Shown piece by piece: positions 22,654 through 48,177 of a DNA stretch of 48,177 bases (the stretch's first letter is position 1; the number at the start of each line of letters is the position of its first letter). Source of the stretch: Runella sp. (GTDB lineage Bacteria > Bacteroidota > Bacteroidia > Cytophagales > Spirosomataceae); assembly GCF_027484545.1 (NCBI RefSeq), contig NZ_JAIXST010000050.1, forward strand, positions 1 through 48,177, read 5' to 3'. Below the pieces are notes generated by a model. That model was not told the DNA's origin. It saw only the letters and a list, made by a program, of their open reading frames with translations, and did no database searches. The translations under genes and the position numbers were made by a program.

Positions 22654-22692
22654 AGGCGCTCTCTATGCTGCTGTATAGCATGGTGCCGCCCA

Positions 22693-23103: not shown

Positions 23104-23318
23104 TTCTTGTAAGGAGTACGGAGATTGGCTGATAGCAGGGTTTCTACTGTATCACTGTTCCATTGTTGTTCGTCCCATATTTTGTTAGCTTCTTGAATGG
23201 CTTTTTGTCCAAAATAATTGGTAATGAGTTGCTTGATAGCTATCCAATCGGCCTCATCAACGGGTCGCGAAAACATCTGTAAGAGCTCCAATTGCGGAGT
23301 AGTAAGTGGCGAAGACAT
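23100..23318 (-). CDS. Probable antitoxin partner of the PIN toxin
   Basis: This 72-residue, mainly helical protein (LELLQMFSRPVDEADWIAIK, then TNYFGQKAIQEANKIWDE) has no recognisable DNA-binding motif. It is placed immediately upstream of the PIN gene with a 4-bp overlap. Short proteins ending in this 'EANKIWDEQQW...LL..NLRTP' pattern are commonly paired with COG1569 PIN toxins in Bacteroidota. I infer an antitoxin role from context and size. No operator palindrome is obvious in front of it. Confidence 0.75.
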   Translation of the reverse strand: MSSPLTTPQLELLQMFSRPVDEADWIAIKQLITNYFGQKAIQEANKIWDEQQWNSDTVETLLSANLRTPYKK

Positions 23319-23390
23319 CGTTTAAAATAATTAGATGTATAAAACAAAATTAACGCATAATTCTAAAAAAACAAATCAATGCCTCAAATC

Positions 23391-23474
23391 CTCCGTAGCA
23401 ACGGTCCGACCCGATACTTTTTTAGAAAACACCACTAACCGCAGCAGCGGCCCCGCTCTATCTACTTCAGGTAA
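23391..23474 (+). repeat. Direct repeat A, copy 2
   Basis: Second copy of the 84-bp element, in the same orientation, starting 72 bp upstream of the antitoxin start codon. A GC-rich block, CCGCAGCAGCGGCCCCGC, lies in its 3' half and can fold on itself. Confidence 0.9.
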
Positions 23475-23652
23475 GGGTAAGGTCTACGTATGGTGCTGTA
23501 TGGGATAGTACTATTGGCTATTGTGGGAGCGGCGGTATCAAAAGTATTTTTCTCTTTAAAAAAGATAAAAAATAATTGCCTCACTGAAATTTTATTTCAG
23601 TGCTGGACTGTAGTTTTATATCAATGTTTCTTGTTTAAAAAGCAAATAGGCT
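23475..23652. other. Intergenic remainder with a small hairpin
   Basis: No convincing gene. An 8-bp stem, CACTGAAA / TTTCAGTG (23582-23589 and 23595-23602), has no T-run. A short frame giving MVLYGIVLLAIVGAAVSKVF is hydrophobic, but it starts inside repeat A similarity and is not supported otherwise. Confidence 0.4.
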
Positions 23653-24111
23653 ATGAAATATATAATCCTCACTTTCTTCGTTTCTTTTTGCCATTTGGCT
23701 CTTTGCCAAAAAAATGCGCCTAAAATCGATTCCATACCTAAGATGAAATTTTCTATAAATGATATGGGTGATTATCCTGTCGTTCATAAGACCTCAATTA
23801 ACTCTTTTAGCAATAATTCTAACAATTCTCAATGGGTCTTCGCGCCAAATATGAACCAAGTAAATTTAGCAACAGGGTTACAACTGTTTTTTATTGATAA
23901 TCAATTGGAAATGGATAGCCAAACAGTGATGGACTTATTAGAATCTAATTCTGGAATTGAAAAAGCAATGTATTTTATAAATGATAAAGGAGAATTTTAT
24001 AACCCATCGGGTATAGATGAAGAGTTTCAATTTGCCATTAAGCAAGAAATACGGCGCTCAAAAATTAAAGTCGGTTCAGTATTAATTATAAAAACAAATA
24101 GTAAAGAATAA
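23653..24111 (+). CDS. Small secreted protein of unknown function
   Basis: The 152-residue protein starts with a clear signal peptide, MKYIILTFFVSFCHLALC, followed by Q-K-N-A-P. The mature part is polar and Ser/Asn-rich (SINSFSNNSNNSQWVFAPNM) and then has a compact alpha/beta portion (SQTVMDLLESNSGIEKAMYF). No family is recognised. It is A/T-rich and isolated between repeat A and repeat B, so it may be accessory DNA rather than core. Confidence 0.6.
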   Translation: MKYIILTFFVSFCHLALCQKNAPKIDSIPKMKFSINDMGDYPVVHKTSINSFSNNSNNSQWVFAPNMNQVNLATGLQLFFIDNQLEMDSQTVMDLLESNSGIEKAMYFINDKGEFYNPSGIDEEFQFAIKQEIRRSKIKVGSVLIIKTNSKE

Positions 24112-24205
24112 TCGAATTCAGAAACATTCAGGCCTGCCTTTCGAAAAATCAAAAATATCACTTGCAACCTATTTTTCAAGGCATTGGGCAGTAGAGCAGC
24201 ATTCG

Positions 24206-24263
24206 TTTTAAGGGAATTTTAGCACTGAATTTATAGCCCGATTTGGAAGAGCAATTTTTCAAC
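24206..24263 (+). repeat. Direct repeat B, copy 1
   Basis: Two conserved blocks, TTTTAAGGGAATTTTAGCAC (24206 on) and GCCCGATTTGG...GCAATTTTTCAAC (24236-24263), recur after the methyltransferase at 25401-25460 with the same spacing. The 8 bases between the blocks are not conserved. Confidence 0.75.
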
Positions 24264-24397
24264 TGGACAATGTAGTGACCTGTAAAATTAGCAGGATAGG
24301 GTACTAAAGGGAATAGAACACTGCTCGTATAGTATTTTCAGTAATTTTGAGGCAATTAAATGCGGAAAGACGTTCATATTGGATGTAACAATAGATA

Positions 24398-25387
24398 ATG
24401 GGTAAAGAGAAGAAGTACCGTGTAGTTTCCATGTTTTCCGGAAGCGGAGGGTTAGATTTGGGTTTTTTGGCAACCAACCGTGCAGAAATAGTGTTGGCAA
24501 ATGACATCAATAAATACGCCTGTGAATCGTATGCTAAAAATATTGGAAATCATATTCTTTGTCAGGATATAAGAGAACTAAAAAATATGCCCCAGGCAGA
24601 TATAGTAATAGGAGGACCGCCTTGCCAGGGCTTTTCCACTGCCAATCCCAACAGGTCGTTTGATGATCCGCGAAACTGGCTTTTTAAAGAGTATGCCCGC
24701 ATTTTATCGGAATCCAATCCCACTATTTTCGTTATGGAAAATGTATCAGGGATGGTTACTCTGGAAAAGGGGGCTGTCCTTACAATGATTTTGCAAGAAC
24801 TTGAACATCAGGGATATAAGGTACAATACAAGATATTGAATGCGAAGGATTACGAAACAGCCCAAAGCAGAAGAAGAACGATCATTGTTGGAACAAAAAA
24901 AAACGTAACTTCTACCTATGACTATCCGCCGCCGGTGGTCAATCCGCCTTTGTTTGGACGATATAAAACGGTAGGTGACGTGCTGTTGAATAAACCCATA
25001 AATGGCAATAACTATAATCATGACATTGCAAAACTTTCTACTCTCAATGAGAATAGGATAAAATACATACCTCAAGGCGGTTCTATGAAAGACTGCCCAG
25101 TGGAATTACAAAATAACTCGGATTTAAAAAGAGCAATGAGAAGATTACATCTCAATGAGGTAAGTCCAACGATTGTCCACAATAACAATGACCATTACTA
25201 TCACCCAACCGAACACCGAAGAGTAACAATACGCGAAATGGCAAGAATACAGGGCTATCCTGATGATTATATTTTTTATGGGCCTAAAAGCGAGCAATCA
25301 AGACAGGTAGGTAACAGCGTGCCTGTCCCCTTTGCCTTTCATATCGCAACAAGCGTAATCAACTATTTGGATGAGACAGGGAAATAG
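24398..25387 (+). CDS. DNA (cytosine-5-)-methyltransferase, solitary
   Basis: The 329-residue enzyme transfers methyl groups from SAM to C5 of cytosine in a specific DNA site. Motif I is FSGSGGLDLGF (13-23), motif IV is GGPPCQGFS with catalytic Cys76, motif VI is ENVSG (114-118), motif VIII is QSRRR (156-160), and motifs IX-X include REMARIQGYPDD and QVGNSVPV near the end. The target-recognition region (about 190-260) is short. No restriction endonuclease or Vsr gene adjoins it. It is therefore an orphan methylase or the surviving half of a type II system. A 5' fragment of a near-identical gene lies about 1.9 kb upstream, and direct repeats B flank it. Confidence 0.95.
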   Translation: MGKEKKYRVVSMFSGSGGLDLGFLATNRAEIVLANDINKYACESYAKNIGNHILCQDIRELKNMPQADIVIGGPPCQGFSTANPNRSFDDPRNWLFKEYARILSESNPTIFVMENVSGMVTLEKGAVLTMILQELEHQGYKVQYKILNAKDYETAQSRRRTIIVGTKKNVTSTYDYPPPVVNPPLFGRYKTVGDVLLNKPINGNNYNHDIAKLSTLNENRIKYIPQGGSMKDCPVELQNNSDLKRAMRRLHLNEVSPTIVHNNNDHYYHPTEHRRVTIREMARIQGYPDDYIFYGPKSEQSRQVGNSVPVPFAFHIATSVINYLDETGK

Positions 25388-25400
25388 TCACTCAAGGCTT

Positions 25401-25460
25401 TTTTAAAGGAAATTTAGTACTGCCTCCCTGGCCCGATTTGGGGAAAGCAATTTTTCAAAC
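25401..25460 (+). repeat. Direct repeat B, copy 2
   Basis: TTTTAAAGGAAATTTAGTAC followed by GCCCGATTTGGGGAAAGC and ATTTTTCAAAC, matching the copy in front of the methyltransferase. It begins 13 bp after that gene's stop codon. Confidence 0.75.
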
Positions 25461-25544
25461 AGAGGGAAGACCATTCACCGCAATAAAATCATGGGGCCGT
25501 TGCCCCCCTCCTCATTTGTATAGTTATTTTTTCTTCAAATCCTC

Positions 25545-25552
25545 TACTTTTG
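25545..25552 (+). promoter_or_regulatory. Likely -7 promoter element for the M28 peptidase
   Basis: TACTTTTG matches the Bacteroidota TAnnTTTG element and lies 31 bp before the GTG start. No well-spaced -33 TTG is present, so only the -7 half is supported. Confidence 0.5.
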
Positions 25553-25583
25553 CAGTTGGATACCTACGCTCAAAACTTCCCAA

Positions 25584-27224
25584 GTGAAAAAACTGCTACT
25601 GCTTTTACTCCTGCCTTTCTTTGTTCATTCCCAGAAAGTTATCAACCGAAAGTTGCTGAAATCGTTGAATAAAATAGATTCCAACCAAATCAGAGCACAC
25701 GTTCAATTTTTAGCAGATGATAAGTTGAAAGGACGGTTGCCGGGACAGGAAGGGTATCAAATGGCGGTGGATTATGTGAGCGGTCAATTCAAATCCATGG
25801 GGTTGATTCCCGCAGACGAAGGAGGCGGATATACGCAGAAAGTGATTTTGAGAAAATCCATTCTGAAAAAAGACGCCTTGTCTCTTCGCATGAATTTGAA
25901 AAACGGAGAGACGAAAACCTTGGAATATGGCTCTGAGTATTTGATTTTTCCGCATCCCGAAAAGACTTCGGTTGATATTTCAGCGCCGATGGTGTTTGTA
26001 GGTGCCGGGTTTGACCGTCCCGAAATGGGCTTCAACGATTATGCCAACGTGGATGTAAAAGGTAAAATCGTGGTGGTGATGAAAAAAGTACCGGACAGTC
26101 TCGCCGCCAATGTAAAACTGCACCTCAATTATGCCGCTACGACGCAGGAATACGCCATAAAACACGGAGCGATTGGAATTTTGACCTGCAATTATATGAC
26201 GACCACGACGCAGTTTAAGGCTCAGGCCAACACCATGACTTCTACCGGACAAAATGCTTCGATGGACGACCATGGAAAAGTGGTTGGGTCGATAACGCAC
26301 CGAGGATTGCCTCTGCAAATTTCCGGTTCCATCTCCATCAAAATGCTGAGTGACTTGATGAAGGCCGAAGGACTGGATTTTGAAAAAATTGGGGATAAAA
26401 TGGATAAGGGAGAAAACGTGAGTGCCTACCTTTCTTCCACTCTTCAAGCAAGCTATGGTACTCAGCATGAAGATATTATAAGTTACAATTTGATAGGAAA
26501 AATTGAAGGAAGCGATGCCGAATTGAAAAATGAATACGTGGTTCATACGGCTCATTTAGACCATTTGGGAATCGGGAAAGCAGTGGAAGGGGATTCAATT
26601 TATAATGGTGCCCACGACAATGCGTCGGGGGTAGCGTGTGCCTTGGAAATGGCTCGAATGTACACCCGTTTGGAGAGAAAGCCGAAGCGCTCGGTATTGT
26701 TTGTCATCGTAACGGCCGAAGAAATGGGGCTTTTGGGATCGGCTTATTTTGCCGCGAATCCCACGGTTCCCAAGTCAGCGTTGGTTGCGGATGTCAATAC
26801 CGATATGCCCACAATTATCGCTCCGTTGGAGTCGGTTTCGCCATTGGGAGCCGAGCACAGCAGTCTTCAGGAAGTGGTGAATCAGGCAACCAAAGCCTTG
26901 AAATTGGACGTGGAGCCCGACTTAGAGCCCAAAGAAGGACGTTTTGTGAGAAGCGATCAATACAGTTTTGTTCGGGCGGGCATTCCGGCGTTGCATATCA
27001 AATACGGCAGTAAAACCTCGTTGCCCAATTTCAATTTGTTGGAATCGGTCAAAAAATGGCGTGAAGCCACCTACCATAAGCCTGCGGATAACTTCAGCGG
27101 AGGCACTTTTTATTGGTCGGCCGGTCGAAAATATGCGCAACTCAATTTTTTAATTGGCTATTTAATTGCTCAAAATCCCCAACGTCCCACTTGGAAAAAG
27201 GGTGATTTTTTTGAAGTGAAATAA
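25584..27224 (+). CDS. Exported M28-family zinc aminopeptidase with PA-type insertion
   Basis: The 546-residue protein has an N-terminal signal peptide (MKKLLLLLLLPFFVHS). The middle region (about 130-250) is a protease-associated domain, as in bacterial M28 peptidases (KGKIVVVMKKVPDSLAANVK, AIKHGAIGILT). The di-zinc site is HLDHLG (324-329), NGAHDNASG (341-349, Asp345), TAEEMGLLGS (Glu379/380) and DVNTDMP (Asp407), with a C-terminal histidine expected near IPALHIKYG. It likely trims peptides in the periplasm or outside the cell. Translation starts at GTG (25584); there is no in-frame ATG before the signal peptide. Confidence 0.92.
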   Translation: MKKLLLLLLLPFFVHSQKVINRKLLKSLNKIDSNQIRAHVQFLADDKLKGRLPGQEGYQMAVDYVSGQFKSMGLIPADEGGGYTQKVILRKSILKKDALSLRMNLKNGETKTLEYGSEYLIFPHPEKTSVDISAPMVFVGAGFDRPEMGFNDYANVDVKGKIVVVMKKVPDSLAANVKLHLNYAATTQEYAIKHGAIGILTCNYMTTTTQFKAQANTMTSTGQNASMDDHGKVVGSITHRGLPLQISGSISIKMLSDLMKAEGLDFEKIGDKMDKGENVSAYLSSTLQASYGTQHEDIISYNLIGKIEGSDAELKNEYVVHTAHLDHLGIGKAVEGDSIYNGAHDNASGVACALEMARMYTRLERKPKRSVLFVIVTAEEMGLLGSAYFAANPTVPKSALVADVNTDMPTIIAPLESVSPLGAEHSSLQEVVNQATKALKLDVEPDLEPKEGRFVRSDQYSFVRAGIPALHIKYGSKTSLPNFNLLESVKKWREATYHKPADNFSGGTFYWSAGRKYAQLNFLIGYLIAQNPQRPTWKKGDFFEVK

Positions 27225-36863: not shown

Positions 36864-37424
36864 TTGCCGGAAAGTCAGCTCATAAAAGCCTGTTTGCGAG
36901 GAGAAGCGTTAGCGTATGAACGCCTTTATCAACAATATGCCCCCAAAATGATGGTGGTATGTAAGCGGTATGTGAATGATTATGAAGATGCCAAAGACCT
37001 TTTACAGGAAGGGTTTATGAAAGTTTTTCAGGAGCTGCACCGCTTTCGCAATGAAGGTTCGTTTGAGGGTTGGGTACGACGAATCATGGTCAATGTGTCA
37101 TTAGAGCATTACAAAAAAGTTGTCAAACCTGGCCATCAGTTGGACGACATTTCGCTGCTGACCGACCATTTTCAACCCATTGCTGACCAAGATATCGAAA
37201 GCCACCTTTCAGCAGAGGAATTGTTACTTTTAGTACAAACCCTACCACCAGCATATCGCATGGTGTTCAACCTGTATGTTTTTGAAGGATTCAAACACCA
37301 CGAAATCGCTAAGCAGCTGGGTATTGGCGAAGGGACTTCCAAGTCCAACCTACAGGATGCGCGTCGGCTACTACAAAAGAAGATATTGATCATGAACAAA
37401 GAAGCTAAAACCCGTTCGATATGA
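36864..37424 (+). CDS. ECF-type RNA polymerase sigma-70 factor
   Basis: The 186-residue protein has a sigma-2 region (YERLYQQYAPKMMVVCKRYV, then DAKDLLQEGFMKVFQELHRF) and a sigma-4 helix-turn-helix (LPPAYRMVFNLYVFEGFKHH, then EIAKQLGIGEGTSKSNL). It has the ECF layout without sigma-1 or sigma-3. TTG at 36864 is the start: an in-frame stop lies at 36837 and no ATG intervenes. Its stop overlaps the ATG of the next gene by 4 bp, so the two are translationally coupled, as for sigma/anti-sigma pairs. Confidence 0.92.
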   Translation: MPESQLIKACLRGEALAYERLYQQYAPKMMVVCKRYVNDYEDAKDLLQEGFMKVFQELHRFRNEGSFEGWVRRIMVNVSLEHYKKVVKPGHQLDDISLLTDHFQPIADQDIESHLSAEELLLLVQTLPPAYRMVFNLYVFEGFKHHEIAKQLGIGEGTSKSNLQDARRLLQKKILIMNKEAKTRSI

Positions 37425-39013
37425 GCGAGCAAAAACCACACAAAATAGACGAGACTTTTCGTTCGATGATTGAACGGATGTCGTTCGAGCCACCCCCGGC
37501 CAATTTGGATGGAATGAGAGCCAATGCGCTCCAATTACACCTTGGTAGACTGCGAGCAGAAAATGGCTGGCTTAAAGCGGCTCTGGGCATAGCCATGCTA
37601 CTGTTGGGAGGTAGCGGGTATGTATTGCTGAAAGGGGAGGCCCCCCCACGGCAGGAATCGGTAGCTCAGCAGATCATAAAAGTCAAAGAAACCGACACCG
37701 TTTATATTACCCGAACGGAGCGGGTTTATATTCGAGTACCTATTCCTGAATCCATCAACGACGGGTCTGATTTTGCTCAGGACAATACGAAAGCCATTGA
37801 TAGTCAATCTAAAAACAATAAAACCTCCCCGAATGAAGAAACAATTACTTTAAGTGAAAGTTATCGAAGTACCGCAAACCCCAAAAGCGGAATTTCTAAA
37901 AATACTCCATACGATTCAAAAGATATTGTTGAAAATAATCGGTCCGGCAACCGTAAGCGCAGCATTACCACTAATCAATCCTTCGGTCAAAATTCAAATC
38001 GCCGAAAACAGACCGGTAATGTTGAATCCAACAGTCAAAATATGGCTAAAAACCAAGCTCTGGCTGAAAACATCGTGCCACCGACAGCCGACCTAAAACA
38101 TACGCCCGAGGCGTTGATGGGCGCAGAAAATAACTTACTGAATCTTGCTTTTTTAGAGCCGTTGAATTACTCAATTGTGCCGCATCTGAACATTCCAAAG
38201 ATTCACGGTATACTTAAAAATCAGTCAGCTGCAAAACTTAAAAAAACTCATCAGCCTTTCAGCAAGAGACTTTCAGTGTCTGTGTATTTTTCTCCCGAGT
38301 TAAATAGCCTGCGTCTTAGACGGGATGAAATTGACGCCTTTGAGTATGGTCATGAAAAAATTACAGAGACCCAAGTGGCGGGTTTTCGGGTTGGGATAAA
38401 ACTATCGGGCAAACTGAGTTTGTTAACGGGTATGGAATACCAAACAATCCGCTTTGAACATGCGGGACTCAGTAAGGAAACCCTGATTGCGCAAGACGTA
38501 AACGGTAAACCCACATTCTTAAAAAAAACGGTGTTTGGTATGGCGCAAATCCCTGGAGATTTTTACACGTCCAATCCGATGGTAGGCAGCCGTGTTGTTA
38601 TTGAAGGAGACGAAGATAATTTCGTGCAGCATTTGCGAATTCCCATGGCGCTTCAGTATGATTTTTACAGCCGAAAACTGCCATGGCGGCTCCAACAAAA
38701 AAACATGGGTTTAAAACTCTACACCCTTGTGGGCGGCTATTGGGCTATCCCCACCAAACAGCAAATGAAAGCAGAGATTTACGAGCCCGACGGTCACGAT
38801 TTTTACAGCACTCTCACCCATTTTCAAAACACAAAACCGTATTTTGGATTCAACGCAGGGGTAGGCGCAGAAATACGTTATGGCCGGCATTGGCAGGTGT
38901 TTGGAGAGCCTTACTATCAAGCTGGAATTACCAGCATGGTTCAAAATTTGCCCCTCCGAACGTTTGTTGACGGATTTGGTTGCCGTTTTGGTGTCAAATT
39001 TCAGTTAAAATAA
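37421..39013 (+). CDS. Sigma-coupled single-span protein with barrel-like C-terminus
   Basis: The 530-residue protein has a short cytoplasmic N-terminus (about 1-48: HKIDETFRSMIERMSFEPPP), one membrane helix (about 50-70: WLKAALGIAMLLLGGSGYVL), a long Ser/Asn-rich disordered periplasmic linker (about 75-265), and a C-terminal region with beta-barrel-like strands (RLSVSVYFSPELN, ETQVAGFRVGIKLSGKLSLL, FGFNAGVGAEIRYGRHWQVF) ending in an aromatic-rich strand. Position and coupling with the ECF gene suggest an anti-sigma or sensor role, with the N-terminus touching the sigma factor. No standard anti-sigma zinc motif is seen. The function is inferred only. Confidence 0.65.
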   Translation: MSEQKPHKIDETFRSMIERMSFEPPPANLDGMRANALQLHLGRLRAENGWLKAALGIAMLLLGGSGYVLLKGEAPPRQESVAQQIIKVKETDTVYITRTERVYIRVPIPESINDGSDFAQDNTKAIDSQSKNNKTSPNEETITLSESYRSTANPKSGISKNTPYDSKDIVENNRSGNRKRSITTNQSFGQNSNRRKQTGNVESNSQNMAKNQALAENIVPPTADLKHTPEALMGAENNLLNLAFLEPLNYSIVPHLNIPKIHGILKNQSAAKLKKTHQPFSKRLSVSVYFSPELNSLRLRRDEIDAFEYGHEKITETQVAGFRVGIKLSGKLSLLTGMEYQTIRFEHAGLSKETLIAQDVNGKPTFLKKTVFGMAQIPGDFYTSNPMVGSRVVIEGDEDNFVQHLRIPMALQYDFYSRKLPWRLQQKNMGLKLYTLVGGYWAIPTKQQMKAEIYEPDGHDFYSTLTHFQNTKPYFGFNAGVGAEIRYGRHWQVFGEPYYQAGITSMVQNLPLRTFVDGFGCRFGVKFQLK

Positions 39014-39035
39014 CAACAGGTTTCCAGTGTTTGAA

Positions 39036-39067
39036 AGTGTCGGGCGACCATGTCCGGCACTTTTTTT
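39036..39067 (+). terminator. Terminator after the sigma operon
   Basis: AGTGTCGG (39036-39043) pairs with CCGGCACT (39054-39061) with one G-U pair, followed by seven T residues overlapping the stem end (39061-39067). It lies 22 bp past the stop. Confidence 0.8.
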
Positions 39068-39076
39068 GTCGCCTTG

Positions 39077-39346: not shown

Positions 39347-42300
39347 ATGTCCACCAAATTTTTTACCAACGAAACCGATAATACCCTCCTGCAAAAAATT
39401 GAAGGGGTTTTTCAATACAAAAACGTTCACTTTTTTGATGCCCTCGTAGGTTACTTTCGGGCTTCGGGCTATTTCAGAATACGCCCTTTCATTGAGAAAG
39501 CCCAAGAAATCCGCATTTTAGTAGGTATCAATATTGATGTTTTGGTGCTCGAAGCCCAGAAAAACGGAGTCATTTTTGAGGCAGACGCCCACCTGTCGCA
39601 AGAACAGTTTTTTGAGTCTTTAAAAGAAAACATCCAACAGGCCACCTACTCCAAAACCATTGAGGAGGGAATGCTGCAGTTTATCAGCGATTTGGCCACG
39701 GGTAAACTGCAAATTAGGGTACACCCCAAGCAAAATATCCACGCCAAAATCTACATTTTCAGAGAACAAACCAAGCACAGCCACGGCTACGGGTCAGTCA
39801 TTACGGGGTCGAGCAACCTTACCGATTCAGGCCTCCAACGCAACTTTGAATTTAATGTCGAACTACGCGACGATACTGATATTGCCTTTGCCACCGACAC
39901 CTTTGAAAAACTCTGGGTTGAAGGTGTACCCGTCAGCGAAGCGTTTGTGGATAAACTCAAACAACAAACCTACCTCAACGATACCTTCACCCCTTACGAG
40001 GTTTACCTGAAATTTTTGATTGAATATTTCGGCAAAAGCATTGACTTTGACCCCAATTCCATCAGCGATTTGCCCAAGGGCTTTAAGCGCCTTTCTTACC
40101 AGATTGATGCGGTCAACGATGGCTTCAATAAAATGGATAAACACGGAGGTTTTTTCCTTTCGGATGTGGTCGGATTAGGTAAAACGGTCGTCGCTACCCT
40201 CATTGCCAAAAAGTTTTACTTCAAAAATGGCTTCCCCGACCACCGCTCTCGTACGTTGATTGTGGTACCACCCGCCCTCAAAGGCAACTGGGAAGAAACC
40301 CTCGAAAAATTTGGTTTTGAAAGTTACGAAATCGTAACCAACGGCAGCCTGCACAAAGTACGCAATCCCGAAAAATATGATTTGGTGATTGTGGACGAGG
40401 CCCACAAGTTTCGGTCGGATGCTTCTACGGCCTACAACGACCTGCAAAAGATTTGTAAATCGCCTGCCCGCAGGGTATTGCCTGATGGCTCAAAAACCCA
40501 AAAGAAAGTAATGCTCGTTTCAGCTACGCCACTCAACAATCGCCCAGAAGACGTAGCGAGTTTGGTGTATTTGTTTCAAGATAGCAAAGATTCTACCCTC
40601 GAAGTGGGAAACTTGCAGCACTTCTTCCGCCAACAAATTGACGCTTATCGCAAGGCTAAAAACGAGACTGATTTGACCAAAACGCTGGCCGAAGTAAAAC
40701 GCATTTATACCGAAATCCGTAACAAAGTCATCGAACCCCTGACCGTTCGACGGACGCGTACCGACTTGCAGATTCACGACCAGTATTCATTAGATTTAGC
40801 AGCACAAGGCATTCGCTTCCCTGATGTCAAAGGGCCAGAGAAGATTTTTTATCAGTTAGACCCGCAGCTTGAAAGCCTCTACGACAAAACCATTTGGCTG
40901 TTGACTCACCCCACTTTGGGACTTACCTACAACCGCTATCGGGCCATTGGTTTTCTAAAACCAGCCAAAAAGCAGAAGTATAAAAAGGCCGACATGATTG
41001 CCACGCAGTTGGCCAAAATCATGAAAACCATGCTCGTCAAACGCATTGACAGTAGCTTTCATGCTTTCAAGGCGTCATTGGGACGGTTTTTGCAGGCCAA
41101 TCAAGCCATGATTACCATGTTTGAGCAAGGCCGTATTTTTATTGCCCCCAACCTCCCCGTGAGCGAGTACATCAACGACGGCAAAGAAGACGAACTATTA
41201 GATTTGGTATTGGAACGGCAACTCGACGACCCCACCATCGAAATTTGCGCCCCCGATGATTTTGAAGTAGGTTTTGAAAGCGGCCTCCAACAAGACCAAG
41301 AAATATTAACCCAATTGGTCATGCTTTGGGAGGGAATTGGCGACAAAGACCCCAAGCTCGACACCTTTGTTGAGTACCTCAAAAATCGCTTGTTTACCGA
41401 CATCAACCACGAAAAAAAGTTGGTCGTATTCTCTGAAAGCAAAGAGACCACCGACTATTTGGCCAAGAAATTGCCCCAATTTATTGAAGAAAAAATCTTG
41501 ACCGTGGACAGCCACACCCGCAAAGACCGTATGCCCATTATTCGGGAAAATTTCGACGCCAATTTCTCGGGTATCAAACGCAATGATTACCAGATGGTTA
41601 TATCTACCGAAGTACTGGCAGAGGGGGTAAACCTACACCGTGCCAACGTCATCGTCAATTATGATACGCCCTGGAATTCCACCCGACTCATGCAGCGCAT
41701 CGGGCGGGTCAATCGCATTGGGTCGGTGGCCAAAGAAGTACACGTCTTTAACTTTTTCCCAACGGCGCAGGTGGACAACGACATTGAGCTACAGAAAAAA
41801 GCCCTGATGAAATTGCAAGCCTTCCACGCAGCCTTGGGTGAAGATAGTCAAATTTACAGCCCCGACGAAACCCCCGAAACTTTCGGGCTTTTTGACAAAG
41901 ACCCCGACGAAGAAAAAGATGAGAAGTTGGAATACTTGATGAAAATCAGAGAATTGAAAGAAAAAGACCCCGACTATTTCCGTAAGATTCAACAAATGCC
42001 GCTGCGGGCAAGGGTAGGCCGCAAAGACAAAACCCAACGCAATGAAACCATCAGCTTCATCAGAAACCACAAGCGCGATGCCTTTTTTTATGTGAAGACC
42101 AACGGAGAAGTGCTACCCCTCTCTTTTTTGGAAGCCGTCAAGAAATTTCAAGCCACCGAGTCTGAAAAAGCTATCCCATTGCACCCCACCCACCACGAAC
42201 AGGTACAAACTGCCATCGGGCAGTTTCAGGCGGATATTGAGCGGGAAGCAAGCCCCGAACACAAAATAGACATTACCCCTGGCCCCAACGAAAAGAAGGC

Positions 42301-42601
42301 CCAAGACTACCTCAACGGCTTTTTGAACGTCCCGCACTTGGGCCCAGACGAAAAAACCTTGCTCCTTTTGGCCAAAGAAGCCCTGCAAAAAGGCTGGTAC
42401 CAAAACCTACAACGCGACATCAATAAATTGCAAAAAAACCAGAAAACAGCCAAATTGAAACTGTCGGTTTTGCTGGACGAGTTGCTCAAAATCTTGAATA
42501 GTTATAACTTACAGACCCGCCAAAACCCCGTAGCCAAAACCAAAGCCACCCCCAAAGACCTTATCCCCAAAATCATCATTTCTGAAAGTTTCAACGCATG
42601 A
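39347..42601 (+). CDS. SNF2-like helicase with N-terminal phospholipase-D nuclease domain
   Basis: The 1084-residue protein combines two modules. Residues 1-200 are a PLD-like nuclease domain with one HKD half-site: HAKIYIF (132-138) and GSSNLTDSGL (154-163). The helicase follows: Walker A SDVVGLGKT (272-280), VPPALKGNWEETL (307-319), DEAH (350-353), SATPLNN and the C-terminal motifs STEVLAEGVNLHRANVIV and RLMQRIGRVNRIGS (about 780-793). Helicases of this superfamily-2 branch translocate on DNA in restriction and defence systems such as DISARM (DrmD). A PLD domain at the N-terminus suggests nicking or cutting coupled to translocation. Its last 4 bp overlap the next gene (ATGA). Phage defence is inferred from context. 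Confidence 0.9.
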   Translation: MSTKFFTNETDNTLLQKIEGVFQYKNVHFFDALVGYFRASGYFRIRPFIEKAQEIRILVGINIDVLVLEAQKNGVIFEADAHLSQEQFFESLKENIQQATYSKTIEEGMLQFISDLATGKLQIRVHPKQNIHAKIYIFREQTKHSHGYGSVITGSSNLTDSGLQRNFEFNVELRDDTDIAFATDTFEKLWVEGVPVSEAFVDKLKQQTYLNDTFTPYEVYLKFLIEYFGKSIDFDPNSISDLPKGFKRLSYQIDAVNDGFNKMDKHGGFFLSDVVGLGKTVVATLIAKKFYFKNGFPDHRSRTLIVVPPALKGNWEETLEKFGFESYEIVTNGSLHKVRNPEKYDLVIVDEAHKFRSDASTAYNDLQKICKSPARRVLPDGSKTQKKVMLVSATPLNNRPEDVASLVYLFQDSKDSTLEVGNLQHFFRQQIDAYRKAKNETDLTKTLAEVKRIYTEIRNKVIEPLTVRRTRTDLQIHDQYSLDLAAQGIRFPDVKGPEKIFYQLDPQLESLYDKTIWLLTHPTLGLTYNRYRAIGFLKPAKKQKYKKADMIATQLAKIMKTMLVKRIDSSFHAFKASLGRFLQANQAMITMFEQGRIFIAPNLPVSEYINDGKEDELLDLVLERQLDDPTIEICAPDDFEVGFESGLQQDQEILTQLVMLWEGIGDKDPKLDTFVEYLKNRLFTDINHEKKLVVFSESKETTDYLAKKLPQFIEEKILTVDSHTRKDRMPIIRENFDANFSGIKRNDYQMVISTEVLAEGVNLHRANVIVNYDTPWNSTRLMQRIGRVNRIGSVAKEVHVFNFFPTAQVDNDIELQKKALMKLQAFHAALGEDSQIYSPDETPETFGLFDKDPDEEKDEKLEYLMKIRELKEKDPDYFRKIQQMPLRARVGRKDKTQRNETISFIRNHKRDAFFYVKTNGEVLPLSFLEAVKKFQATESEKAIPLHPTHHEQVQTAIGQFQADIEREASPEHKIDITPGPNEKKAQDYLNGFLNVPHLGPDEKTLLLLAKEALQKGWYQNLQRDINKLQKNQKTAKLKLSVLLDELLKILNSYNLQTRQNPVAKTKATPKDLIPKIIISESFNA
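42569..42600 (+). repeat. Direct repeat C, copy 1 (3' end of helicase gene)
   Basis: The 32 bases beginning AAAATCATCATTTCTGAAAG encode the helicase C-terminus KIIISESFNA and the start of the next ATG. They match 44351-44382 in 27 of 32 positions. Confidence 0.85.
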
Positions 42602-44256
42602 CCCCCGAATCACAACATATTGATTACAAAAGCATTCGTATCATACAGAAAGGCGAGAGCGGTTTCAAAGACTTGGCACAAGCGGCTGTTTGTTTTGCCA
42701 ATGCGCAAGGCGGCAAACTCGTTATTGGCATTGAAGATGTGAATAAGATGCCACCGAGTGAACAAACCATCAACGTAGAAGACATCAACAAAACCCTTAC
42801 CCGAATTCGCTCTCTTTCTTTTAATGTGGGTTTAACCGCCAGCGATGTGTTGACACATCCCAACGGAGGGCAGTATTTTGAACTTACTATTTTACCGTCT
42901 TCTAAAACCATTGCCACCACCAACGATGGCAAAATTTACCTGCGAGTAGGTGACCAATGCCACGCGGCCCGTAGCGAAGACCTCGTAAGGATAGCCGCCG
43001 AAAAAGATGCTTTTCAGTGGGAATTGCAATTGCGAAACGTTTGGTTAAATGACATTCCTGCCCAACATCTGACAAAATTTGCCAACGAGATTAGACAGTC
43101 GCCAAGGGTAAAGGAGAGCATAAAACAAAGAAGTGATGTCGAAATTGCCGAGCATTATAACCTCATCAACAGCGAGCAACTAACAAACTTGGGCATTTTG
43201 TGGCTTGGCAATGCTTCCCAACGCAGCCGATTGGCGTATCCACTCACGATACAGTATTTGGTTTACAATGACTTAGAGGAGAAAGTCCGTAAATTAGATT
43301 GGCACGATTACGCCCTCAACCCCAAAGAACTATTACAAGAAATCGAAAAAGAAGCCATCGAACTTACCTATTACCATGAGTTCCAAGACGGACTTTTCCA
43401 GCGCAAACCCATTCGATTTTATGACGAACGGGTCATCAGAGAGCTACTCATCAATGCCTTTGCGCACAAAAGCTACACCATATCAGGCGATATTTTTATC
43501 AGTGTTTATGTGGATAGACTGGAAATTAAAAACCCAGGCGGGCTATTGATGGGTATTTCCAAAGATAACATTCTGCACAAAACCGCCCGACGGAATCCTC
43601 ATCTCATCAAAATCTTTCACGACCTCAACCTGATGGAAGGAGAAGGCTCAGGCTTTGATTTACTGTATGAAATCAGCAGCCGTAATGCCAAACCCTTTCC
43701 TATCGTTGAAGCCGACTTTGACAGTGTCAACGTGGTGCAGGAATCTAAAATCCTGGACGAATCAAGCATTGCGCTACTCGAATACGTATCGAATCACTAT
43801 CAACTATCGCAACGTGAGTTTATCGCATTGGGTATCGTGTCGAGATGGCAAAAAGTCTTGACTACTCAACTCTACAAGCAGCTACAATTGCCAGAAGAAG
43901 AACGCCTTAGAAGTTACGTAAGTCGCTTAACCGAACAAGGTTTGCTCATCAGCCGTGGCCTTAAAAAAGGTACTGAATACCTCATCAACCCACAATTGGT
44001 GGCCAATGCCCGACTCAATGTCAAAGCCAGCCTGAAAGTCATAGAACCGCACCGCCTCAAAGCCCTGATCATTGAAGAATTACGCCTCAGGCCCCAAAGC
44101 AGCATCGAAGATATTCATCAACGCTTTGAAGAAATTGACCGCAAGGATATTCAAAAAGCCGTGTATAAATTAGTAGAAGAGGGCGAATTAGAATATTCAG
44201 GAGGTAAAACGTATCGTAAATACGAACTGGCAAAAAAAAAAAGAAATAAAAAATAA
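42598..44256 (+). CDS. AlbA_2/Schlafen-type ATP-binding protein with winged-helix tail
   Basis: The 552-residue protein has an N-terminal AlbA_2 (Schlafen-like) domain, residues about 5-125 (GFKDLAQAAVCFANAQGGKL, then VIGIED). A GHKL-type ATPase domain of the RecG-C/HATPase_c_4 type spans about 275-370 (VIRELLINAFAHKSYTISGD, LEIKNPGGLLMGISKDN, NLMEGEGSGFDLLYE). Two or three winged-helix units fill the C-terminus (EERLRSYVSRLTEQGLLISR, KDIQKAVYKLVEEGELEYSG), and the last residues are lysine-rich. Such proteins are often annotated as transcriptional regulators or RNA/DNA-binding ATPases; several accompany defence systems. It is translationally coupled to the helicase and is bounded by copies of repeat C. 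Confidence 0.88.
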   Translation: MTPESQHIDYKSIRIIQKGESGFKDLAQAAVCFANAQGGKLVIGIEDVNKMPPSEQTINVEDINKTLTRIRSLSFNVGLTASDVLTHPNGGQYFELTILPSSKTIATTNDGKIYLRVGDQCHAARSEDLVRIAAEKDAFQWELQLRNVWLNDIPAQHLTKFANEIRQSPRVKESIKQRSDVEIAEHYNLINSEQLTNLGILWLGNASQRSRLAYPLTIQYLVYNDLEEKVRKLDWHDYALNPKELLQEIEKEAIELTYYHEFQDGLFQRKPIRFYDERVIRELLINAFAHKSYTISGDIFISVYVDRLEIKNPGGLLMGISKDNILHKTARRNPHLIKIFHDLNLMEGEGSGFDLLYEISSRNAKPFPIVEADFDSVNVVQESKILDESSIALLEYVSNHYQLSQREFIALGIVSRWQKVLTTQLYKQLQLPEEERLRSYVSRLTEQGLLISRGLKKGTEYLINPQLVANARLNVKASLKVIEPHRLKALIIEELRLRPQSSIEDIHQRFEEIDRKDIQKAVYKLVEEGELEYSGGKTYRKYELAKKKRNKK

Positions 44257-44502
44257 ATGAAAAAGAAAAAGATTCAAATAGTTGATTTTTAAATAGTTAA
44301 TTATTTTTATTTCTTTTTTGTAACATAAAAAAATGAAAAGAAAATAGTCTAAAATAACCATCTCTGAAAGTTTTGACGCATGGATATAACACGAGCTTGC
44401 TTGACAATACCCGCACAACCGCTACTTTCAGAGAAAATCTAATTATGCAACAGCCTGTTGCACAATTACAAGACAACGATTAACGAATTGACAGAAATAC
44501 CC
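44257..44502. other. A/T-rich intergenic gap with remnant of a helicase gene end
   Basis: Positions 44257-44350 are extremely A/T-rich (ATTTTTAAATAG, TTATTTTTATTTC). At 44351-44382 the helicase 3' end recurs (encoding KITISESFDAW). A 20-codon frame from ATG 44380 ends at 44442 without recognisable product. The methylase gene could also start at TTG 44458. No other gene or RNA is seen. Confidence 0.6.
44351..44382 (+). repeat. Direct repeat C, copy 2
   Basis: The 32 bases beginning AAAATAACCATCTCTGAAAG would encode KITISESFDA then ATG, mirroring the helicase-gene terminus at 42569-42600. The five differences are mostly silent or conservative (Ile/Thr, Asn/Asp), as expected of a diverged homologous gene end rather than chance. 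Confidence 0.85.
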
Positions 44503-47500
44503 ATGACCGAAAAAGAACTCAAAGAAAAACTTCACGAGCCATATCGCCTCCACACTTGGCAGGAGATCGTTCGTCATATATTCAAAAACCCAACCCTCTT
44601 TACCACCGAGGCGGCTTTGCCATTGTTTGAAAATGTGGAGTATGTGCAAAAAGCTTTTCAGTTTGGTACAGTATCACTGCACGACGACCGACAATTAGCC
44701 CTGATTGATGTCAAACTAAGCAGCAACAAAGTCATCTCAAAAAATAGGGTTCAGCTTCGTGAACTTATCGCCAAGTATGTAGATGGAGGCAAGTTTCAGG
44801 GCATTTTGGCTTTATTTCATTCTGCTGATACCACCCAACAAGATTACCGACTCACTTTCATTGCCAAAAGTAGCTCGTTTAATGAGGAGGGTGAGTTTGT
44901 AACCAAACAAACCTACCCAAAGCGTTATACCTATATTTTAGGCCAAAATGAGTCCTGTACCACCGCTGCCCAACGACTCACCAAATACTTAGGCGACAAC
45001 AATCGGGCGGCATTGAAAGATGTCATTGAGGCATTCTCGGTTGAGAAACTCTCCAATGACTTTTTTGCCGAATACAAGTACAACTACGAAAAAAAGTTTT
45101 TGGCTCACCTTATGCCGCTCAAAAACACCGTTTTCGAGGGCAACGACAAAGCCGTGAGAGACTTTTGCAAACGCTTGCTTGGGCGTATTGTGTTCCTGTA
45201 TTTTGTTCAGAAAAAACGCTGGTTGGGGGCTACCGTTGGCCAAGACCACTGGGAGGGCGATACCAATTTTTTGCTCTCGCTTTTCAAGGAAGTACAGGCA
45301 CAAGACCAAACATCCGCGTTTTATTCGCATTGGCTTTCAAAGCTGTTTTTTGAGACGCTCAATACCAAACGAGAAGGGGATTTATTCAGGATGCCAACGG
45401 GCAAGCAAGTGAAAGTGCCGTATCTCAACGGGGGGCTTTTTTATGGTAAAAAAGAGCCTGAGGCGTCCCTCATCTCGTTTCCTGCCCACTTTTTCCATCA
45501 AAATGATGATAAAAAAGCCGATAAACCCAACGAAAGAGGGCTTTTCGACTTTATGAATAGCTTCAACTTTACGATTTATGAAGACAGTCCCGAAGACCAG
45601 ACTGTGGCCGTTGACCCTGAAATGCTCGGACACATCTTTGAAAACTTGCTCGAAGAAAACCGTGAAAAAGGTGCGATTTACACCCCAAAAGACAACGTAC
45701 ATTTCATGTGTCAGCAAAGCCTGATTCATTACCTAAATGTACACCTCAATCCCAAGAACAACCCTACCATTGAAAGCCAAATCAGGCAAGTAGTGGTGCA
45801 GAAAAATATCAACAATATTCCAGAAGATTTACTAATTGACATTGACAATAGGCTCGAAAAAATCAAAATCTGCGACCCTGCCATTGGCTCGGGCGCATTT
45901 CCGATGGGACTGCTGCAGGAGATTTTTGCCATCAAAGAAATTATTTATTTTGCCCGAGGCTTCAAAAGCTACTCGTCGGCCAAGGTCAAAGAAAATATCA
46001 TCCAGAAATCTATTTATGGCGTGGATTTGGACGCAGGTGCCGTGGACATTGCCCGCTTGCGCTTTTGGTTGTCGTTGATTGTGGACGAAGAAAAACCCCG
46101 CGCCTTGCCCAACCTCGACTACAAAATCGTAGAAGGCGACTCGCTTGTGCCCAAGTTTGAAAACCAGATTGTAGAAATTGAATGGAACAAATCACATACC
46201 ACCAGTAATCAATTTCTCTTGGAGGGCATTCGGGACTCACTCAGAAAAGTGGTAGAGAAACAGCGTGCGTTTTTTAGCCTCAACGACGACGACACCCAGC
46301 CGCACCCCACCAAAGAAGCGCTGCAACAAGAGATTAGAGACATAAAGATTGATTTGCTGATTAATCAACTGGCATTGAGCCAATTAGAGGCCAGTGCTAC
46401 CAATGTATCGCAAGGGGGATTATTTGCTTTGCCCAAATCGAAAGCCGAGCAAAAAGCCGAAGAAGACCTCCGCCAACGTACCGCAGGCTATGAAGAGTTG
46501 ATTGTTAAATTGCGAGCATTGAAGCAAAACCCAGAAATGCCTTTGCGATTCTTTGATTGGAAACTCACCTTTGCCGAAATCCTCAACGAACAAGTGACCG
46601 ACGAAAAAGGCTTCGATATTGTCATTGCCAATCCGCCTTATATGCGGGTGCAGGGCATACAGGCCAACTTGACCGACGAGAAAAAATACATCGAAACCGA
46701 AAAAGATTACCGCGAGATTACGACGGGGGCGTATGAATTTGCCAACCTGTTTTTTGTGATGACCGTCAAGAAACTGTCCAAAGAAAACGGCAGCAATTGC
46801 TTTATTTTTCCCCACAAATTCTTCAATTCTGATAGTTCTGCTCCCTTCCGTAGTTTTTTACGGAAAGGCATGTACATTGACAAAATTGCCCATTTTGGAG
46901 CCAATCGGGTCTTTAACGATGCCGATACCTACGTTTGCATTGCTTTTTTTTCCAAAAAAGCCAATGCAGGTTTTAAACTCCAAAAATTTGCCCACCGAAC
47001 CAATTTTATCCCACACCTCAACGACGAATCTCGCTACGAATTTATCAGCTACGAAACCCTCGACCGCGCCGCCAAAGCCTACGGAGGCAACCAGTGGATA
47101 TTTTTCAGAACCGCCGAAGAATACCAAATCTTTGAAAAGATATATCAACATTCGAGTAAAATAGAGGAAGTATTTGAAGATATATTTCAAGGAATTGCCA
47201 CCAGCAACGACAATCTATTTTTGATTGAGGTGGAACGAGAAGATGAGGGATATTTATACGGCAAAAACAAACTCAGTGACCGAGTGTGGCAAGTAGAAAA
47301 GGCGTTTTTTAAGCCCATGCTGCGCGGGCGCGATGTACAACGCTACGCCCCTTTACACACCGATAATTACGTCTTTTTTCCGTATCAGGTACAAAACAAA
47401 AAAGCTGCGGTAGTACCCCTCAAAACCTTTGAGGACAATTATCCCTATACGTTCCAATACATCATGGAGCAAGAAGCCATTTTTAAAGCGCGAGAAAGCG

Positions 47501-48174
47501 GGAAAGCGGCCAAAATGTCCCATTGGTACGAGTATATTTATCCCAAAAACCTTGTCAAGTTTGAGCAGCCTAAGCTTTCCAGCATGGAAATCTGCACCAC
47601 CCACCCCAACGTGACGTTCAATGAAGGTAATTTTTATCATAATACAAAAGTGTATAGTTGGGTCAAAAAAGAAAATATTTCAGCGAGTTACGAATACCTT
47701 TTGGCCATTGCCAACAGTGCTGTACTATGGTGGTTTTTGAAAAACACGGGCGATACCCTTCAAGGCGATGCAAGAACACTTAAAACCAATTATCTCAACC
47801 CATTTCCCATCCCCTTGGCCGTCAGTACGCACTACCAAGAAGCCATTGCGCACTTGGTAAAATACGTCATCTACCTCACCGATACGGCACACCCTCAGGT
47901 TCACCCGAGCATTGGCAATGGTGCCGTGGCTCAATACCTGCGGCAGGTCATAGACGGCTGTGTGTTTGAGTTGTATTTTGGCGAAGAAATGAAAGCCAAG
48001 CGCATTGACATCTTGCCGTTTGTCGCTACCGAAATCAAGCCCTATGACGGGCAGCCGCAAACCATTTTGCAGGTATATCAGCAGTGGCAACGGCCCGATA
48101 GCCAAGTTAGGAATCGCCTCAAACTCATGGCCATCGAAAGCCCTCATACCATAGCCCACATTCTGAATGTATGA
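44503..48174 (+). CDS. Eco57I-class N6-adenine methylase / possible restriction-modification protein
   Basis: The 1223-residue protein has an N-terminal region of about 400 residues, then an N6-adenine methylase core: SAM motif ICDPAIGSGAFPMGLLQE (about 455-472), YGVDLDAGAVDIARLR, and catalytic NPPY (about 710-713, in IVIANPPYMRV). A TaqI-like specificity region follows, including PMLRGRDVQRYAPLH (about 935-949). The family is Eco57I/type IIG/ISP or BREX PglX-like. The N-terminus holds DD-x7-DVK (about 61-71), a possible PD-(D/E)XK trace, not proven. ATG at 44503 is preferred over TTG at 44458, because MTEKELKEKLHEPYRLHTWQ has a natural start. It is the modifying component of the operon and follows the ATPase after 246 bp. 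Confidence 0.9.
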   Translation: MTEKELKEKLHEPYRLHTWQEIVRHIFKNPTLFTTEAALPLFENVEYVQKAFQFGTVSLHDDRQLALIDVKLSSNKVISKNRVQLRELIAKYVDGGKFQGILALFHSADTTQQDYRLTFIAKSSSFNEEGEFVTKQTYPKRYTYILGQNESCTTAAQRLTKYLGDNNRAALKDVIEAFSVEKLSNDFFAEYKYNYEKKFLAHLMPLKNTVFEGNDKAVRDFCKRLLGRIVFLYFVQKKRWLGATVGQDHWEGDTNFLLSLFKEVQAQDQTSAFYSHWLSKLFFETLNTKREGDLFRMPTGKQVKVPYLNGGLFYGKKEPEASLISFPAHFFHQNDDKKADKPNERGLFDFMNSFNFTIYEDSPEDQTVAVDPEMLGHIFENLLEENREKGAIYTPKDNVHFMCQQSLIHYLNVHLNPKNNPTIESQIRQVVVQKNINNIPEDLLIDIDNRLEKIKICDPAIGSGAFPMGLLQEIFAIKEIIYFARGFKSYSSAKVKENIIQKSIYGVDLDAGAVDIARLRFWLSLIVDEEKPRALPNLDYKIVEGDSLVPKFENQIVEIEWNKSHTTSNQFLLEGIRDSLRKVVEKQRAFFSLNDDDTQPHPTKEALQQEIRDIKIDLLINQLALSQLEASATNVSQGGLFALPKSKAEQKAEEDLRQRTAGYEELIVKLRALKQNPEMPLRFFDWKLTFAEILNEQVTDEKGFDIVIANPPYMRVQGIQANLTDEKKYIETEKDYREITTGAYEFANLFFVMTVKKLSKENGSNCFIFPHKFFNSDSSAPFRSFLRKGMYIDKIAHFGANRVFNDADTYVCIAFFSKKANAGFKLQKFAHRTNFIPHLNDESRYEFISYETLDRAAKAYGGNQWIFFRTAEEYQIFEKIYQHSSKIEEVFEDIFQGIATSNDNLFLIEVEREDEGYLYGKNKLSDRVWQVEKAFFKPMLRGRDVQRYAPLHTDNYVFFPYQVQNKKAAVVPLKTFEDNYPYTFQYIMEQEAIFKARESGKAAKMSHWYEYIYPKNLVKFEQPKLSSMEICTTHPNVTFNEGNFYHNTKVYSWVKKENISASYEYLLAIANSAVLWWFLKNTGDTLQGDARTLKTNYLNPFPIPLAVSTHYQEAIAHLVKYVIYLTDTAHPQVHPSIGNGAVAQYLRQVIDGCVFELYFGEEMKAKRIDILPFVATEIKPYDGQPQTILQVYQQWQRPDSQVRNRLKLMAIESPHTIAHILNV

Positions 48175-48177
48175 AAA
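48171..48177 (+). CDS. Possible start of the next operon gene (cut by window edge)
   Basis: ATGAAAA overlaps the methylase stop as ATGA (TGA at 48172-48174), exactly the coupling seen between the helicase and ATPase genes. Only two codons are visible, so this is a positional guess. Confidence 0.3.

Follow-up and report, generated by a model that had tools for sequence, protein, structure and literature searches.

A 48,177-bp contig of a draft Runella sp. genome (contig C117, NZ_JAIXST010000050.1; genome size 7.1 Mb), analysed in its entirety and called the window below, ends in what is probably an acquired defence island. We predict that the core of this island is a two-subunit, ATP-dependent restriction-modification (RM) system, and we infer the restriction activity itself. 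The core consists of a helicase with an N-terminal nuclease domain (HEL) and an N6-adenine methylase (MT); judged by sequence comparison, this pair is the conserved unit and is kept across phyla, and a three-gene set is not. The window locus has the arrangement that defines the pair, in which a TaqI/CamA-type methylase follows an HKD-SNF2 helicase and shares its strand, and the window stops at 48177 because the contig ends there, 3 bp past the methylase stop codon. A sequence-only reading of this DNA had described a nuclease-helicase, a Schlafen/AlbA-GHKL ATPase and an N6-adenine methylase as three co-directional genes, with the first two overlapping by ATGA and a PLD domain fused to the helicase. 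Open reading frames (ORFs) and Pfam matches bear out this description: the three ORFs are present at full length, the first gene stops at 42601 and the second starts at 42598, and a single ORF carries both the PLD and the helicase domains.

39347..42601, + strand: HEL, 1084 aa; Pfam PLDc_2, SNF2-rel_dom and Helicase_C
42598..44256, + strand: Schlafen/AlbA-GHKL protein, 552 aa; Pfam SLFN_AlbA_2 (4.6e-12) and HATPase_c_4 (2e-16)
44503..48174, + strand: MT, 1223 aa; TaqI/CamA/BrxX-like N6-adenine methyltransferase with a C-terminal target-recognition domain (TRD)
44503..44982, + strand: N-terminal alpha/beta domain of MT, residues 1-160; nuclease-like as read from the predicted model

The N-terminal HKD/PLD nuclease domain of HEL spans residues ~87-190 (HxK 132-134, GSSN 154-157, N166/E168) and precedes a SNF2/RapA-type superfamily 2 (SF2) helicase part with G276-T280, DEAH 350-353, SAT 392-394 and 783-790, under the motif names that we take to apply. 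In an alignment of the window protein with those of 17 of the 18 loci L033-L050 (L039, in which HEL is split, was omitted), the HKD and helicase positions checked were conserved in 18/18 proteins, the exceptions being A133, A352 and S392 (16/18 each) and the variable residues 139-142. The top PADLOC profile was C3a139 'HKD+Snf2' at 146 bits, followed by DrmD at 130 bits, and PbeA matched weakly at 75 bits. None of the island proteins reaches an NCBIfam model cut-off; with DISARM_DrmD (NF038317) HEL scores 150.3 bits against a cut-off of 610. Counting this genome, HEL occurs in 30/150 family genomes at E<=1e-30 (25 at E<=1e-100) and in 32/395 evenly drawn phylum genomes at E<=1e-80, an occurrence that is therefore far above chance.

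Pfam identifies Eco57I (2.4e-30), N6_Mtase and TaqI_C (4e-10) in MT, a TaqI-type methylase and its TRD in one chain. The frame is open from a TTG at 44458, the first ATG at 44503 coincides with the aligned start of relatives, and the stop codon occupies 48172-48174. When the window protein was aligned with 29 chosen MTs, DPA-x-GSG and NPPY were kept in 30/30. The nuclease-like candidates of the N-terminus vary (D61 in 24/30; E69 in 23/30, with D in 2 more; K71 in 8/30), and the window protein itself carries D61, D69 and K71. The best PDB profile match is CamA (7lni, 1.2e-62), and the structure model lies near CamA (TM-score by target 0.79), M.BseCI, BrxX and MmeI; residues 1-160 matched no solved structure by sequence in the PDB profile search. 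PADLOC ranks Type IIG REase_MTase_IIG first (2e-77), with weaker matches to DrmMI (1.3e-30) and PglX (1.8e-19). A 246-bp gap that appears A+T-rich by eye (44257-44502) separates the Schlafen stop from the methylase ATG and could hold a separate promoter.

Conservation of the pair was assessed in a census of 94 distinct loci, assembled from 18 family loci with room to judge (L033-L050) and from a scan of GTDB species genomes that returned at least 481 HEL relatives; duplicates L072, L098, L124 and L136 were removed. Only the 80 relatives best by similarity were kept, so this set is not a random sample. They come from Bacteroidetes groups, Verrucomicrobia, cyanobacteria, Pelagibacteraceae, other Proteobacteria, Acidobacteriota, Neomarinimicrobiota, Cloacimonadota, Dojkabacteria and others. 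MT follows HEL in 18/18 family loci, with an AlbA gene between them in 3, and an ABC ATPase of ~620 aa lies downstream of MT in 8/18, separated from it by an intervening gene in 2 of the 8. In 90 census loci HEL is followed by 300 bp or more of sequence; among these, MT begins within 300 bp of HEL in 59 and within 2.5 kb in 88; in L104 the distance is 4.9 kb. The phylum sample, in which at least four loci repeat earlier ones (L162=L036, L169=L140, L171=L139, L168=L126), gave the same order in 27/31 loci, this genome aside, and in three of those without MT (L187, L190, L191) less than 800 bp of contig remained. The ABC gene is found within 300 bp of MT in 26/65 loci with 2 kb of room, and in 29 anywhere. 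The sequence-only reading had suggested that the three genes may form a distinct, methylation-guided restriction system: a distinct defence-type, methylation-linked system is supported, the gene content being unlike DISARM or BREX, and helicase and methylase recur together, whereas the three-gene unit is not supported, the AlbA gene being present in 9/94 loci.

The two halves of the pair have largely separate histories. We compared 75 near-full-length HEL-MT pairs, from the window and from 74 of the 94 loci, those long enough to pass the cut-offs. The correlation of HEL identity with MT core identity was weak (Spearman 0.22), and there was none with TRD identity (0.02, p 0.32). HEL proteins that are 97% identical accompany MT cores of 37% (L042/L121) and 36% identity (L121/L122), L105/L127 combine 87% with 33%, and between the window and L033 both HEL and the Schlafen protein are 91% identical and MT 41%. 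Concordant pairs also occur (HEL/MT 98/98 in L040/L105 and 92/88 in L111/L115), and in two pairs the situation was reversed, the MT core exceeding 75% identity and HEL remaining under 60%. As read from these identities, the methylase is exchanged while the helicase stays.

In some loci the TRD itself appears to be switchable. A serine recombinase is encoded within 2.5 kb downstream of MT in 8/94 loci (L033, L043, L050, L127, L140, L142, L147, L149), with a reversed partial MT in between in 6 of the 8; invertases next to MT in L174 and L177 of the phylum sample and in L199 of Prevotella nigrescens bring the total to 11. These genes were called with our own profile, and Pfam supports the call for L033 and L199. 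Inverted repeats join the TRD region of MT to its reversed copy, the clearest being 256 bp at 100% identity in L050 and 321 bp at 95% in L177, with weaker ones elsewhere. We computed inversions in nine loci: between repeat mid-points in eight that include L039, where no invertase was found, and over several crossover points in L199; L174 and L177 lay outside this test. MT stayed open in 14/14 repeat pairs of the eight loci, a result obtained without a random-segment control, and the swapped ends were 34-52% identical. Invertase and ABC genes, both of which sit after MT, never occur together (0/8 versus 29/57, Fisher p 0.007), which could reflect either competition for one position or incompatibility of a switching methylase with a guard. 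Inverted repeats of ~60 bp (80% and 88%) bound the stretch from HEL through MT and the reverse TRD to the invertase in L174 (2800-2860/11228-11169) and L149 (176-234/9661-9603); from these sequences, the unit in both looks as though it had itself moved or flipped.

In the P. nigrescens locus (L199, NZ_CP082843.1), HEL is a distant relative at 31% identity; besides MT there are two partial MT genes in reverse orientation and a gene for a 'master DNA invertase Mpi'. Both of its possible inversions (2/2) give an open MT, of 1054 and 1109 aa at best compared with 1112, the longest frame over the crossover points being the one kept. Two records of 2,697 bp annotated as plasmids of P. nigrescens DSM 13386 (NZ_CP133467.1 and NZ_CP133468.1; L202 and L203) match the L199 segment at 100%; they have 2,676 bp in common, each carries a further 21 bp on one side, and their ends fall inside the repeats, which occupy 17292-17338 and 19983-20029 of L199. 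Since they correspond to the inter-repeat segment of another P. nigrescens strain, they are probably not plasmids, and the simplest reading of the sequences would be that the assembler was faced with more than one arrangement of this segment.

Published methylome data may bear on the same process; this and the other papers cited by PMC number are used for the portions of their text that were available. For Prevotella intermedia 17F, PMC5608340 describes a 3,354-bp methylase gene with a SNF2/RAD54 helicase upstream and an adjoining 918-bp gene on the opposite strand that is filed under the same Type IIG entry. The N6-methyladenine motifs reported there are GGNYAG, CCNYAG and GGYGAB, of which the cloned enzyme, Pin17FIII, accounts for GGYGAB only; Rikenella microfusus is described as having homologs together with three unassigned motifs (PMC5608340). 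The Pin17FIII methylase gene (chromosome II 22231-25584, 1117 aa by count) and the opposite-strand gene (25608-26525, 305 aa) have the layout of L043, L050, L147 and L177; they differ as described in PMC5608340, to which our comparison is confined, in that both genes are filed as Type IIG and two motifs are left unexplained, and the text covered mentions neither an HKD domain nor an invertase. TRD inversion may explain the extra motifs of P. intermedia 17F and R. microfusus. We give about even chances to the broader proposal that these loci represent an unnamed, widespread class of ATP-dependent restriction systems, in which one HKD-SNF2 motor works with interchangeable methylases and an invertase switches the TRD in some loci, and which would account for both the 17F motifs and the 'plasmids'.

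The Schlafen/AlbA gene of the window appears from these comparisons to be optional cargo in a slot between HEL and MT, with a predicted role as an RNase-type backup. Its product is 91% and 96% identical to proteins of two congeners and 80% identical to one from a third family genome. AlbA genes occupy the slot in 9/94 loci (8 by profile and L071 by Pfam), and the SLFN_AlbA_2 proteins are very divergent in some (L071, L073, L078, L082, L143, and also L200). The slot has no room for a sizeable gene in 59/90 loci. DUF1016/YhcG genes occur in it in 8/94 loci by profile, with Pfam confirmation for L036 and L048. In the subset of loci whose slots were scanned with Pfam, RhuM (L076, L144), KilA-N (L080, L088, L135, L137), ORF6N (L092), NYN (L128, L182), PIN (L111), Uma2 (L118), DUF3800 (L181) and a 23S intervening-sequence protein (L121) were also found. 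Comparable neighbourhoods have been described, with PrrC/RloC accompanied by RhuM-like or Fic/Doc-like genes in RM loci (PMC3710099) and Schlafen-kinase-winged helix-turn-helix genes near BREX/BR core loci in at least 1017 taxa (PMC12839542). In L090, L092 and L096 the genes after MT encode McrB-like AAA and McrC proteins, which places a modified-cytosine-type system beside an adenine-methylase one.

The island continues past 48177 on a second contig of the genome, C158, where its fourth gene encodes an ABC ATPase. The features that link the two contigs are as follows.

39009..39069, + strand: upstream direct repeat, a 61-bp element with a terminator-like hairpin (by eye)
46894..48174, + strand: MT residues 798-1223, mostly the TRD region, with a near-duplicate at the end of C158
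48171..48177, + strand: predicted start of the fourth gene, ATGAAAA; its ATG (48171-48173) overlaps the MT stop codon
C158:9128-9188, - strand: second copy of the 61-bp element, 89% identical to the window copy
C158 9380-10006 and 10016-11170, - strand: two pieces of the ABC ATPase gene, with one in-frame stop between them after codon 384

C117 and C158 carry the two flanks of one site into which the operon was inserted, because the site is empty in three congeners: in G031, G050 and G063, homologs of 36864-39013 adjoin homologs of five C158 genes and the operon is missing from between them. The match of G050 and G063 to the window extends through 39067. A genome search with 39000-39075 returned two full copies of the repeat and a partial match on C158 (80%, E 0.04). 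In G031 the C158 copy aligns (72%) immediately behind that same gene, and in G063 (75%) it falls where the window copy does, so that the empty site apparently has one copy. C158 also encodes, outside the repeat, a rubrerythrin-like protein of 220 aa and a DUF2231-like protein of 161 aa (below cut-off); neither gene matched the empty-site stretches of the congeners, and a search of the 12 remaining genomes of the genus at E<=1e-20 gave no homolog of the rubrerythrin-like gene.

The C158 copy of MT residues 798-1223 is 94.7% identical in DNA and is interrupted by an in-frame TAA. It differs from the window copy by 32 synonymous and 22 other codon differences, including one stop and one gap, and the non-synonymous-type differences are bunched at 884-899, 1047-1049, 1092-1095 and 1109-1110. 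About 60 identical bases lie at either edge of the alignment, and the contig ends share no exact overlap up to 199 bases; the C158 copy may either stand in tandem with the window copy or be an alternative, allelic form of it. After this copy the ABC ORF begins with an ATGA overlap of the MT stop and the same start as at the window end, and both of its pieces match a profile built from the relatives' ABC genes. In this genome the reading frames of HEL, MT and the Schlafen gene are intact; that of the ABC copy is interrupted. The full order HEL-SLFN-MT-ABC recurs in Spirosoma arboris (L070) and Prevotella sp. oral taxon 299 (L200). When 20 of the 24 listed ABC ORFs were aligned (the pieces from the window genome were not among them), R-x3-E, N and H were invariant in 20/20 (R428, E432, N491 and H495, numbered as in L070). 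These residues lie in a helical stretch that follows the ATPase part, and Ser precedes His in 15/20. A CxC/CxxC hook is absent from 7/8 ABC proteins scanned, and the eighth has one unconserved CHC.

This genome holds further sequences of similar type. C73 (L154:1328-8900) encodes a distant SNF2 helicase and long methylase pair (1142 and 1334 aa), whose helicase scores 229 bits with PADLOC C3a139, and C272 (L153:234-5283) carries another distant pair, comprising a helicase end of 319 aa and a methylase of 1327 aa. Near the far end of C158, a 222-aa PLDc_2 ORF with a weak HEL match (L065:589-1257, minus strand) adjoins a GMC oxidoreductase gene and, on visual inspection, looks like the beginning of the C73 helicase.

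The island most likely encodes ATP-dependent, Type III/BREX-like restriction with backups. MT would methylate host DNA at a short asymmetric site, on one strand. Where incoming DNA lacks this mark, MT bound at its site would recruit HEL, which would then travel along the DNA with ATP. Since each HEL chain has a single HKD motif, two chains would have to pair to cut, and cleavage would thus depend on a pair of sites or on two motors that converge, as with Type III enzymes; such a two-site need would spare freshly replicated host DNA with its unmarked new strand. Should the core be inhibited, the Schlafen/AlbA-GHKL protein and the ABC ATPase, which is RloC-like, may serve as backups by attacking RNA. 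HEL as cutter and MT as recogniser and marker are favoured because the HKD, helicase and methylase catalytic residues are invariant, the N-terminal candidates of MT vary, and MT resembles CamA, M.BseCI and BrxX.

Several observations weigh against this reading or against the wider class. The top PADLOC profile of MT is a Type IIG one, so MT itself may cut, and in the Schlafen-bearing loci nearest to the window the MT ORFs are short (945 aa in L033, 1045 in L034, 1037 in L039), so the methylases there may be damaged or differently ended. Many census loci come from metagenome-assembled genomes; L094 has HEL and 6.8 kb of downstream sequence with no MT match, and in L192 HEL is followed by a different gene of 1098 aa. 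The invertase-bearing L033 shows no reversed TRD ORF and no inverted repeat across MT, and no ORF among the 200 of the window and C158 matched the invertase profile, so a switch is not shown for this strain. The missing control and the choice of the longest frame in L199 temper the inversion result, and P. intermedia 17F is placed in the class by gene sizes, orientation and the helicase. The E-to-H spacing of the ABC proteins is 58-68 (109 in one), compared with 36-52 given for RloC, and the 50 fold matches listed for them are SMC/Rad50-type or related heads with no HEPN among them. In the literature covered we found no phage test or cleavage assay for the HEL-MT family.

The readings that compete with this one were weighed with odds that are not exclusive. 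That the N-terminal nuclease of MT cuts as a Type IIG enzyme, with HEL a helper or a separate gene, is unlikely; the PADLOC ranking, the name given to Pin17FIII (PMC5608340), the alpha/beta domain in the MT model and the D61, D69 and K71 of the window protein speak for it, whereas the variation of these positions, set against 18/18 for the HKD residues of HEL, and the linkage of HEL and MT in 88/90 loci do not. Another idea is that HEL, AlbA, MT and ABC form one obligate four-part machine, the other loci being different or decayed. The recurrence of the full order in L070 and L200, where the slot holds SLFN proteins that have diverged, and the tight overlaps in the window fit that idea, which is compatible with a restriction core; AlbA is nevertheless found in 9/94 loci and a close ABC gene in 26/65, and unrelated families fill the slot, which makes an obligate machine quite improbable. 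It is highly improbable that the locus is mainly an epigenetic switch of the phasevarion type, in which the methylase alters host expression and HEL has another role on DNA. Invertases adjoin MT in 11 loci and phase-variable methylases act on expression (PMC11868660), but the census finds an invertase in 8/94 loci and the window and C158 yielded none, the HKD residues are invariant, and RM-type neighbours (McrBC) stand in three loci.

A reduced or rearranged class 1 DISARM or ARMADA system, with its YprA-family proteins encoded elsewhere, is very improbable. Both known systems resemble the island in combining a SNF2/RapA helicase with a PglX-like methylase, and ARMADA pairs a BrxHII/RapA-like helicase with such a methylase (PMC12458937); DrmD is the second PADLOC match of HEL, and DrmMI matches MT. 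They differ in that the nuclease is here fused to the helicase and no DUF1998/YprA-type protein is linked to it. The sequence-only reading had left room for drmA/drmB just outside the window. The sole DUF1998 (MZB) match in the genome lies on C134 (166-384), where the contig begins inside the gene, and on neither C117 nor C158; the genes after it do not look like defence genes by eye, and its other side is past the contig end. DUF1998 served to judge DrmB, and also, being part of these proteins (PMC12458937), as a proxy for the ARMADA YprA helicase, which by this proxy is likewise absent from the operon; no leftover ORF for DrmA was seen near the island on C117 or C158, where no DrmA profile was run. 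A tblastn search with the DUF1998 protein found none at E<=1e-3 in 129 loci, a weak result given one truncated query, and the NCBIfam DrmD score is far below its cut-off.

Comparison with other systems places the components among known kinds, with relatives in databases under partial names. The architecture of MT is that of PglX/BrxX; PglZ of BREX is not in the operon, the genome's only copy being at C320:10698-11285. Specificity switching of pglX by recombination has been reported in BREX. With DUF1998 on C134 and PglZ on C320, the genome thus has parts of other defence systems. BR Type 2/DUF499 systems, which partly correspond to Hma (helicase-methylase-ATPase), share an N-terminal HKD-SWI2/SNF2 helicase and an N6 methylase (PMC12839542, PMC8565338), but are described as centred on DUF499, with DUF3780 in 98% of taxa, and the genome has 0 matches to DUF499 (PF04465). 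We rejected Hma itself, whose ATPase is DUF499 and whose methylase is predicted to make 5-methylcytosine. CxC-ABC/DndE (PbeABCD) systems likewise contain an HKD-SF2 helicase and an ABC ATPase, in some cases together with methylases (PMC10853773); they differ in the conserved CxC hook, which the ABC family here does not have, and in the weak PbeA match of HEL. An identity with CxC/Pbe was rejected on the missing hook. The ABC proteins share with RloC/PrrC a Rad50-like head, a C-terminal R-x3-E...H in the order of the RloC/PrrC triad, a frequent Ser ahead of the His, and RM linkage (PMC2610378, PMC3710099), and differ in the absence of a CxxC zinc hook, in the wider E-H spacing and in giving no HEPN protein among the fold matches listed.

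Type III RM (Mod/Res) systems combine a recognising methylase with a separate SF2 helicase-nuclease acting at an asymmetric site, which is the working proposed here; the island differs in its HKD rather than PD-(D/E)XK nuclease, its SNF2-type motor and its TaqI/CamA-type methylase. In the literature covered, with subscription papers, REBASE and DefenseFinder outside that coverage, we found neither the HEL-MT pair as a system nor its TRD inversion described. A 2020 survey of ABC ATPases reportedly may cover related operons.

With its two genes, the pair lends itself to testing helicase-methylase restriction apart from the larger machinery of DISARM, ARMADA or BREX, and its decoupled histories pose the question of how one motor recognises so many methylases. 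The slot and its surroundings (Schlafen, DUF1016, RhuM, KilA-N and the RloC-like ABC) provide natural swaps of possible guard genes around the core. Invertible TRDs make published but unassigned methylome motifs testable and flag 'plasmids' that resemble assembly by-products. If the proposal is true, a single DNA inversion would change both the self-mark and the restriction target of a lineage.

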